From assembly GCA_025361445.1 (NCBI GenBank), contig JANYLP010000008.1, positions 1 through 40,710 on the forward strand: 40,710 nt of DNA, in the 5' to 3' direction. The notes beneath the pieces are model-generated. The model was not told the DNA's origin, made no database searches, and worked only from the letters and a program-made list of their open reading frames with translations. The stretch comes from Coriobacteriia bacterium (lineage in GTDB: Bacteria > Actinomycetota > Coriobacteriia > Anaerosomatales > PALSA-660). The position numbers and the translations under genes were made by a program. Positions 25,676 through 29,244 of the stretch are shown in pieces (the stretch's first letter is position 1; every line of letters begins with the position of its first letter).

Positions 25676-27007
25676 ATGCCCCGACTCTTCGGCACCGACG
25701 GCGTGCGCGGTATTGCCAACGCCGAACTGACCCCCGAGCTGGCCTTCCGGCTCGGCGAGGCCGCCGGCGTGCTTCTGTGCCGGGATGGCCGCGGAAGCGT
25801 GGTCATCGGGAAGGACACGCGCCTCAGCGGAGACATGCTCGAGGCGGCACTGACAGCGGGCTTCTGCGCCGCGGGGTGCGAGGTCCTTCTGGCCGGGATC
25901 GTACCGACGCCGGCCGTGGCATTCCTGGCGCGCGACCTGGGAGCGGATGCGGGAGTCGTGGTCTCGGCTTCGCACAACCCCGCCGCGTACAACGGGATCA
26001 AGTTCTTCGACGGCGACGGCTTCAAGCTGACCGACGCGATCGAGGATCGTCTCGAGGCGTTCGCGCTCTCAGAGCAGCGGAGCGCTCGCCCGACCGGCGA
26101 GTCGATCGGTTCGGTGCGGCTGGTGGAGGATGCTGTCGAGCGCTACCTCGAACATGCGATCGCAACGGTCTCCGGTCGTCTCGACGGCCTGAAGGTCGCC
26201 CTCGACTGCGGTCATGGGGCGGCGTCCCGCACGAGCGAGGCTGCATTCCGGGCGCTCGGCGCCGAAGTGGTCGTGATCAACGCCGACTGGAACGGGACCG
26301 ACATCAACGACGGGTCGGGCTCCACGCATCTGGCGCCGCTCACCGCACTCATGCTCTCATCGGGCGCGGCGATGGGCGTTGCGCACGATGGAGACGCGGA
26401 CCGCACCCTGGCAGTGGATGAGACCGGCGCGGTGGTGGATGGCGATCGGATCATGGCCATCTGTGCGGCGCAGATGCACGCAGAGGGCTCTCTGTCGCAC
26501 GACACGGTGGTGGCGACCGTGATGACGAACATGGGCTTCGACGTGGCGATGCGCGGCCTTGGGATCGAGGTCGCGAAGGCACAGGTCGGTGACCGCTATG
26601 TTCTCGAAGTGATGCGCAAGACGGGCGCGGTCCTTGGCGGCGAGCAGTCCGGCCACGTCATCTTCCTCGATCACACCACGACAGGCGATGGGCTCGTCAC
26701 GGCACTGCAGCTTGCGCACGCCGTCGTGGCCTCCGGCAAAGCGCTGTCCGCGCTGTCCGGCATCGTGAAGCCGCTTCCACAGGTGCTGCTCAACGTCCGG
26801 GTACCGGAAGCCGTTCGCGTCGCGGCCGAGCCGGCGCTGCTGGCCGCGGCCGCGGTCGAAGAGGCCGCGCTGGGCGGGAACGGGCGCGTCCTCGTTCGCG
26901 CGAGTGGCACGGAGCCGTTGGTGCGCGTGATGGTCGAGGCCACCGATGCGAAGGTCGCCACGGACGCCGCCGGCCGGCTCGCCGATCTGGTCGCCGAGCT
27001 CGGCTGA
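25676..27007 (+). CDS. glmM: Phosphoglucosamine mutase
   Basis: MPRLFGTDGVRGIANAELTPELAFRLG; VVSASHNPAAYNGIKFF active-site Ser; DGDADR. Confidence 0.95.
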   Translation: MPRLFGTDGVRGIANAELTPELAFRLGEAAGVLLCRDGRGSVVIGKDTRLSGDMLEAALTAGFCAAGCEVLLAGIVPTPAVAFLARDLGADAGVVVSASHNPAAYNGIKFFDGDGFKLTDAIEDRLEAFALSEQRSARPTGESIGSVRLVEDAVERYLEHAIATVSGRLDGLKVALDCGHGAASRTSEAAFRALGAEVVVINADWNGTDINDGSGSTHLAPLTALMLSSGAAMGVAHDGDADRTLAVDETGAVVDGDRIMAICAAQMHAEGSLSHDTVVATVMTNMGFDVAMRGLGIEVAKAQVGDRYVLEVMRKTGAVLGGEQSGHVIFLDHTTTGDGLVTALQLAHAVVASGKALSALSGIVKPLPQVLLNVRVPEAVRVAAEPALLAAAAVEEAALGGNGRVLVRASGTEPLVRVMVEATDAKVATDAAGRLADLVAELG

Positions 27008-27149
27008 CAGACGCTCGAGTGTCACCGAAACGTGACCGTCGGCGATCCTGACGTCTGCTAGCATTGGGCGTGTGCGCCGCGCGGGAACACGGCGGAACGC
27101 GGCGGCGGGAGGGAGACAACGACGCACCTGTAGCACGGATGCACCACCA

Positions 27150-27290
27150 AGCGCCGGGACTGCACGCGCGAGCGCGCAGTCGACGAGGCGGGGGCTCATC
27201 GAAAGATTCGGCGGATGGCCCTCCGGCACCTCCCGATGTCGATACCGCACCGACAAAGCCCGCGGGTGACCGCGGAGACAACACGGTCGT
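27150..27290 (+). ncRNA. glmS glucosamine-6-phosphate-activated ribozyme
   Basis: A|GCGCC cleavage-site context at 27150/27151, GACTGC..GCGCAGTC P1-like hairpin, GACGAGG, GGGGGCTCATCGAAAGATTCGGCGGATG core, CCGCGG-GTGA-CCGCGG P4-like GNRA hairpin (27260-27275), ACAA (27278-27281); directly upstream of glmS. Confidence 0.9.
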
Positions 27291-27414
27291 GGATCCGGGA
27301 TCCCAGCGCGCACACGCGCGCACACGACGCACAAGCGGCGACGATACTCGTTCGCGCCAGCGACCGTGCTTCGGCATATCCTAGACAAGAACAGAAGACC
27401 GGGAGGTCATCCAT

Positions 27415-29244
27415 ATGTGCGGCATCGTCGGTTATGTGGGGCCGCGTCGTGCGACAGACGTGCTCCTCGGAGGGCTGTCGCGGCTCGAGTACCGCGGCTA
27501 TGACTCGGCGGGTGTCGCCGTTCCCGAGGATGGCACGCTCGCGATCGTCCGTCGGCTCGGGCGGCTTGCGAACCTGCGCGAGGCGCTGGGAGCGCACCCG
27601 CTCGGGGCCACTTCGGGCATCGGCCACACCCGGTGGGCGACACACGGCCGCCCCACCGAGGAGAACGCGCACCCGCACCCTGACTGCAGCGGTGCGATCG
27701 CGGTGGTCCACAACGGCATCATCGAGAACTACTCCGACCTGCGCGAGGAGCTCGCCGCGGCCGGGCACATCCTGCGCAGCGAGACCGACACCGAGGCGAT
27801 CGCGCACCTGATCGAGAGCTACTTCGAGGGCGATCTGACGACCGCCGTTCGCAAGACGCTCGCGCGACTCGAGGGCAGCTACGCGCTTGCGATCATGCAC
27901 GCCGCAGACCCCACGACGATCGTGGCTGCGCGCAGAGACTCACCGCTCATCATCGGGATCGGCCAGGGCGAGAACATCGTCGCCAGCGACATCCCGGCGG
28001 TGCTCGAGTACACGAGGCGCATCCTGGTACTTCATGACGGCGAGGTCGCCACCGTGACGCCGGAATCGGTCCTCGTGGTCGCCGCCGACGGGTCCGTCGT
28101 CGCCGAGCCCGAGATGATCGACGTGGAGTGGGACCTCGACGCCGCCGAGAAGGGCGGATACGAGGACTTCATGCTCAAAGAGATCCACGAGCAGCCGCGC
28201 GCGCTGCGGGAGACCCTGCGCGGGCGCATGGCCGACGACGGCGAGATCCAGCTCTCAGAGCTGGACATGACCACCGAGCAGGTCGCAGGCATCGAGCGGG
28301 TCCTCGTCATCGCGTGCGGCACCTCGTACCACGCCGCTCTCGTCGCGAAGAACCTCATCGAGCGGTGGGCGAGGATCCCCGTCGAGGTCGACGTATCCAG
28401 CGAGTTCCGTTATCGCGATCCGATCGTCGGAGACGACACGCTTGTCGTAGCGGTCACCCAGTCAGGCGAGACCGCCGACACGCTCGCGGGCGTGCGTGAG
28501 GCGCGCGACCGTGGGGCCAAGGTCATCGCGGTCACGAACGTCGTCGGCTCGCGTGTGACCCGCGAGAGCGACGGCGTGATCTACACGCACGCCGGTCCCG
28601 AGATCGGTGTTGCCGCCACCAAGACCTTCACGGCTCAGATCGCCGCCCTCACCGTGCTGGCACTCAAACTGGCGCAAGCGAAGGGGTCGATCCCGCAGGA
28701 GCGCATCCGGTCGCTGTGGGACGAGCTTCTGACCGTCCCGGAAGTGGTCGAGGCCGGCCTCAAGGGCGCCCATCCGCTCGACGAATGTGCCGCCCTCTTC
28801 ATCGACGCGACGTCGTCGCTGTTCCTCGGAAGGGGGATGGGCGTTCCTGTCGCTATGGAGGGGGCACTCAAACTCAAGGAGATCAGCTACATCCACGCCG
28901 AAGGCTTCGCCGCCGGCGAGATGAAGCACGGTCCCATCGCTCTGATCACCGAAGGCATGCCCATCGTCGTCGTGGCGACGCAGGGGCCCACCTACGAGAA
29001 GGTCGTGAGCAACATCCAGGAAGTGCGGGCCCGCGGCGCGAAGGTGATTGCCATCGCCACGGCGGGCGACGACGACATCCGACGTCACGCCGAATGCGTC
29101 CTCTACGTGCCGCGCATGACCGAGGCCCTCTCCGCCATTCCAGCTTCGGTCCCGTTGCAGCTCCTGGCCTACCACATCGCCAAGGCCCGCGGCTGCGACG
29201 TCGACCAGCCCCGCAACCTGGCCAAGTCAGTGACGGTGGAGTAG
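27415..29244 (+). CDS. glmS: Glutamine--fructose-6-phosphate aminotransferase (isomerizing)
   Basis: MCGIVGYVGPRRATDVLLGGLSRLEYRGYDSAGVAV; two SIS domains; C-term NLAKSVTVE. Confidence 0.98.
   Translation: MCGIVGYVGPRRATDVLLGGLSRLEYRGYDSAGVAVPEDGTLAIVRRLGRLANLREALGAHPLGATSGIGHTRWATHGRPTEENAHPHPDCSGAIAVVHNGIIENYSDLREELAAAGHILRSETDTEAIAHLIESYFEGDLTTAVRKTLARLEGSYALAIMHAADPTTIVAARRDSPLIIGIGQGENIVASDIPAVLEYTRRILVLHDGEVATVTPESVLVVAADGSVVAEPEMIDVEWDLDAAEKGGYEDFMLKEIHEQPRALRETLRGRMADDGEIQLSELDMTTEQVAGIERVLVIACGTSYHAALVAKNLIERWARIPVEVDVSSEFRYRDPIVGDDTLVVAVTQSGETADTLAGVREARDRGAKVIAVTNVVGSRVTRESDGVIYTHAGPEIGVAATKTFTAQIAALTVLALKLAQAKGSIPQERIRSLWDELLTVPEVVEAGLKGAHPLDECAALFIDATSSLFLGRGMGVPVAMEGALKLKEISYIHAEGFAAGEMKHGPIALITEGMPIVVVATQGPTYEKVVSNIQEVRARGAKVIAIATAGDDDIRRHAECVLYVPRMTEALSAIPASVPLQLLAYHIAKARGCDVDQPRNLAKSVTVE

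Follow-up and report, generated by a model that had tools for sequence, protein, structure and literature searches.

Results

The glmM-glmS locus

We analysed a 40,710-nucleotide stretch of contig JANYLP010000008.1 (assembly GCA_025361445.1), referred to here as the window, from a Coriobacteriia bacterium. The genome belongs to the same class as Collinsella, in keeping with the context proposed in an earlier reading made from the sequence alone, and a query of C. aerofaciens DNA matched a genome of that class at 100%. The genes for phosphoglucosamine mutase and glutamine-fructose-6-phosphate transaminase, glmM and glmS, follow each other on the forward strand (Table 1) and are separated by 407 nt, one fewer than that reading had counted; acpS, then a gene for an NAD(P)H-hydrate epimerase/dehydratase and then alr come after glmS. 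GlmM acts one pathway step after GlmS, the product of which is GlcN6P.

Table 1. Genes and RNA features of the glmM-glmS locus (window coordinates)
Feature	Coordinates	Strand	Basis or support
glmM, phosphoglucosamine mutase	25676..27007	+	NCBIfam TIGR01455, 535.8 bits, cut-off 447.6
Extended -10 element TGCTAGCAT, predicted glmS promoter	27056..27064	+	TGnTAnnnT pattern
AGGGAG, Shine-Dalgarno-like polypurine stretch, no start codon after it	27110..27115	+	RRGGRG pattern
glmS ribozyme	27139..27302	+	RF00234, full-length match
Predicted self-cleavage site, A27150/G27151	27150..27151	+	A/GCGCC aligned to family model
P2.2 pseudoknot 5' strand, partner 27210-27213	27152..27155	+	paired in 31/31, invariant
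P1 hairpin, 27158-27163 with 27176-27181	27158..27181	+	97.8% paired; both-side changes at 3/6 pairs
Core GACGAGG	27182..27188	+	no variation at its 7 positions in 31 sequences
P2.1 pseudoknot 5' strand, partner 27199-27201	27184..27186	+	family structure mapped on window
P2 5' strand, partner 27218-27223	27190..27195	+	100% paired; both-side changes at 3/6 pairs
P2.1 pseudoknot 3' strand UCG	27199..27201	+	paired in 31/31, invariant
Core UCGGCGGAUG, includes P2.2 3' strand 27210-27213	27208..27217	+	invariant or nearly invariant columns
P3 hairpin, 27224-27228 with 27237-27241	27224..27241	+	98.7% paired; both-side changes at 2/5 pairs
P4 basal helix, 27245-27251 with 27285-27292, bulged C27288	27245..27292	+	family structure mapped on window
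Nested GUGA hairpin, 27260-27265 with 27270-27275	27260..27275	+	96.7% paired; both-side changes at 4/6 pairs
glmS ribosome-binding site GGGAGG	27401..27406	+	sequence
glmS, glutamine-fructose-6-phosphate transaminase, regulated gene	27415..29244	+	TIGR01135, 837.2 bits, cut-off 418

Elsewhere in the window, rpoC (137-1783) ends in a C-terminus (1562-1780) made of two Cys/His zinc-knuckle-like repeats with weak DUF5763 and zinc-finger matches, and the same tail recurs in several further genera of the order, on frames of rpoC length (about 1417-1446 codons).

Identification and structure of the ribozyme

The sequence-only reading had placed a glmS ribozyme in the gap between the two genes, which is confirmed by the full-length RF00234 match, by covariation and by the presence of glmM upstream and glmS downstream. 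The covariance search that it had proposed as a check gave 80.7 bits over model positions 1-167 against a gathering score of 37 bits, with an E value, computed for the whole window, of 3.9e-17. No Rfam family other than RF00234 exceeds its threshold in the window, and a permissive Rfam scan of the leader by itself returned no further family. The interval given earlier, 27150-27290, was too short, the match extending about 11 nt more on each side. The predicted cut lies 264 nt before the glmS ATG.

The hallmark sequences listed in the earlier reading were found where it had put them: A/GCGCC with the cut at 27150/27151, the GACTGC...GCAGTC hairpin (P1), GACGAGG, ATCGAAAGATTCGGCGGATG at 27198-27217 and ACAA at 27278-27281. 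The GUGA hairpin (loop 27266-27269), which had been read as P4-like, is also present; its assignment is to be amended to an inner hairpin of the P4.1 type sitting on top of the basal P4 helix. In an alignment of 31 ribozymes from the order, that of the window among them, A/GCGCC is invariant save for the A in one relative. G27188, likewise invariant in the 31 sequences, is the counterpart of the catalytic guanine, which is G42 of the Bacillus subtilis RNA (residue roles from PMC11602151). The purine stack of the P4 internal loop, formed by AAA (27255-27257) and ACAA, is invariant or nearly so, and all seven pairs of the P2.1 and P2.2 double pseudoknot can form in the window, as in each of the 31 sequences.

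Across this alignment the proposed structure is paired in 91.5% of cells, compared with 85.7% in shuffles; both-side changes occur at 15 of 37 pairs (10.1 in shuffles) and the covariation score is 0.251 (0.129 in shuffles). Each of these measures beats at least 499 of 500 partner shuffles, and in slid controls pairing drops to 28-46%. Helices P1, P2, P3 and P4 are thus backed by compensatory changes. The outer P4 pairs are uninformative because the bulged C of the window shifts the register of the alignment, which is a limit of the alignment and not evidence against P4; P2.1 and P2.2, being invariant, are consistent with the fold and contribute no covariation signal.

A G+C-rich leader forms hairpins easily and the folding z-score here is only -0.97, as would be the case if the resemblance were due to chance or the region were akin to an intrinsic terminator. 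We give this explanation a negligible probability: in addition to the E value, every conserved unpaired base is in place, a terminator scan found no terminator-like site, and the element occupies an equal position in relatives. The RF00234 match together with the covariation refutes it.

The score of the window ribozyme is below that of most relatives (up to 111.5 bits) and a few of its peripheral pairs are mismatched. Taken with the bulged C in P4, and with the loss of the ribozyme from several genomes of the order, which makes relaxed selection possible, this could point to a degenerate RNA that kept its fold and lost cleavage. However, all cleavage-site and core positions that are invariant in the 31 sequences are intact in the window, the differences are peripheral and the paired arms are still complementary, so that we consider an inactive ribozyme very improbable. 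Judged by its sequence, 27139-27302 is an ordinary member of RF00234 that differs from the family only in peripheral parts.

Distribution and G+C content

A glmS ribozyme was found in 48 of the 61 nearest genomes, all of the same order, in 47 of 301 genomes of the class and in 67 of 398 genomes sampled across the phylum. It is therefore the rule in this order of Coriobacteriia and occurs elsewhere in Actinomycetota, while the majority of genomes sampled in the rest of the class are without a match. The unusual distribution suggested by the sequence-only reading is not upheld by these counts, and the distribution is not news. None of the papers available to the analysis links the glmS ribozyme with Coriobacteriia. 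In the relatives checked, glmS lies about 70-200 nt downstream of the ribozyme match, often with glmM upstream. Several ribozymes appeared to have no glmS downstream (L113, L114, L121, L126, L129 and L014), and glmS proved to be present at all of them, beginning with TTG or GTG or having an N-terminus that differs slightly.

Two matches stood apart. Genome G190, from the phylum, carries two distinct glmS ribozymes (L123 and L160), each before its own glmS on a short contig, either a paralogue or assembly contamination. In a genome of the same class, a sub-threshold match (L170, G464:C24:13262-13300, 26.4 bits) covers only model positions 49-88 and is either chance or a remnant.

The P1 and P2 arms are G+C-rich, as had been pointed out; the claim that they are unusually so stands on weaker ground, since they only track the genome (ribozyme 68.3%, locus 68%, whole window 65.8% G+C). 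Ribozymes of relatives have 56-68% G+C within the order and up to 70% elsewhere in the phylum. The proposal of a GC-tolerant variant is likewise not sustained: relatives of equal or higher G+C, at 68-70%, score better, so that high G+C is no strain on the RF00234 family.

Relatives without the ribozyme

Of the 13 near genomes that lack a match, three have no detectable glmS and are probably incomplete, three have a divergent GlmS and seven an ordinary GlmS (70-76% identity). The divergent proteins, in G044, G054 and G055 (L140, L139 and L138), are only 50-51% identical, and the gene ahead of glmS is nagB-like, matching the glucosamine-6-phosphate isomerase/deaminase family in G044; the pattern looks like a replacement of the native glmS. 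A degenerate remnant was looked for at the ribozyme-less glmS loci and rejected, with no glmS ribozyme match up to an E value of 5. As no trace is left at these loci, the ribozyme was lost several times within the order, or glmS was replaced.

The leader upstream of the cut

In the order, 40 of the 48 leaders have the extended -10 pattern TGnTAnnnT between glmM and the ribozyme; shuffles give an expectation of 0.4. A generic sigma-70 scan for two hexamers found no promoter and did not pick up the -10 element of the window. The polypurine pattern RRGGRG lies 22-56 nt (about 35) before the cut in 41 of the 48 leaders, where 6.3 were expected and the maximum in 200 shuffles was 12. It follows the -10 element mostly by 24-27 nt, and by 46 nt in the window. 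All seven ribozyme-less leaders of orthologous glmS keep the -10 element and none has the polypurine stretch after it. The association of polypurine stretch and ribozyme has a probability of 1.7e-5 by Fisher's test, or 2.8e-4 when the three genomes that share a genus are treated as one, both values ignoring phylogeny; the probabilities for the polypurine stretch are optimistic because the motif was picked after the sequences had been inspected. Outside the order, comparable stretches are found in some but not all leaders, both in Actinomycetota and, for one or two leaders, in Firmicutes. The -10 element with a ribozyme-linked, Shine-Dalgarno-like stretch may be a new observation.

Two other roles for the polypurine stretch were considered. 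The best match to the anti-Shine-Dalgarno sequence is stronger than in shuffles (mean -10.4 versus -6.9 kcal/mol; the 16S anti-Shine-Dalgarno pattern was found in G018 only, of seven genomes searched), as would be expected if a small upstream open reading frame used it as its ribosome-binding site, but a start codon stands at the usual distance in just 4 of 41 leaders and no reading frame downstream is shared. The upstream frame was rejected on these grounds and we regard it as unlikely. Alternatively, the polypurine stretch could bind the 3' strand of P2, in competition with the ribozyme, and not act as a stabiliser at all. The minimum-energy fold of the window does pair it with CCCUCC of P2; yet swapping the partners does not weaken the pairing (-10.84 for own, -10.96 for swapped pairs), the mean pairing probability is 0.13 and exceeds 0.5 in only 5 of 41 leaders, and P2 loses no more than it does with shuffled leaders. 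Pairing with P2 as a shared feature is ruled out by the swapped pairs and the pairing probabilities, and competition of this sort seems to us improbable as the role of the polypurine stretch.

Discussion

It is very likely, in our judgement, that the glmS leader carries a ribozyme whose cut at A27150/G27151 is triggered by GlcN6P and followed by RNase J decay of the message, with cleavage, GlcN6P dependence and decay taken over from what holds for the family. Abundant GlcN6P would fill a preformed pocket of the RNA and join in catalysis; the RNA would then cut itself, and the glmS message, now with a 5'-OH, would be degraded by RNase J, as happens to the cleaved glmS message in B. subtilis (PMC3997798; PMC11780869). 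The same genome has an RNase J with beta-CASP and C-terminal domains, the gene being cut by the contig end.

The analysis of the leaders suggests that the polypurine stretch is a putative stabiliser of the STAB-SD type that self-cleavage would remove. STAB-SD elements in 5' leaders, characterised by a longer message half-life brought about by 30S binding, were described by Agaisse and Lereclus (1996, as cited in PMC3997798), and a strong Shine-Dalgarno sequence without a start codon shields messages from 5' attack (PMC3997798). Because the polypurine stretch lies upstream of the cut, it would shield the uncut message only. Self-cleavage would then do two jobs, opening a 5'-OH entry for RNase J and taking away the stabilising sequence; that the polypurine stretch and the ribozyme form one such regulatory unit, lost together, is a tentative proposal, which we hold to be less probable than not. 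If functional, the polypurine stretch would explain how the uncut message is protected and would open a gap in the glmS mechanism to testing.

Compared with the glmS ribozymes of B. subtilis and Thermoanaerobacter tengcongensis (RF00234), the RNA described here has the same cleavage-site sequence, double pseudoknot core and P1, P2, P3 and P4 architecture, and it also stands ahead of glmS. Its departures from the RF00234 consensus, namely 68% G+C, a P1 shorter by 5 bases, one or two single-base insertions and the bulged C in P4, are peripheral. With STAB-SD the leader has in common a Shine-Dalgarno-like polypurine sequence near the 5' end that does not need a start codon; unlike STAB-SD, the polypurine stretch is here only a candidate stabiliser and sits on the leader segment removed by the ribozyme. 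A polypurine stretch also stabilises the katG message in mycobacteria (PMC2358910), where, unlike here, it precedes a start codon.
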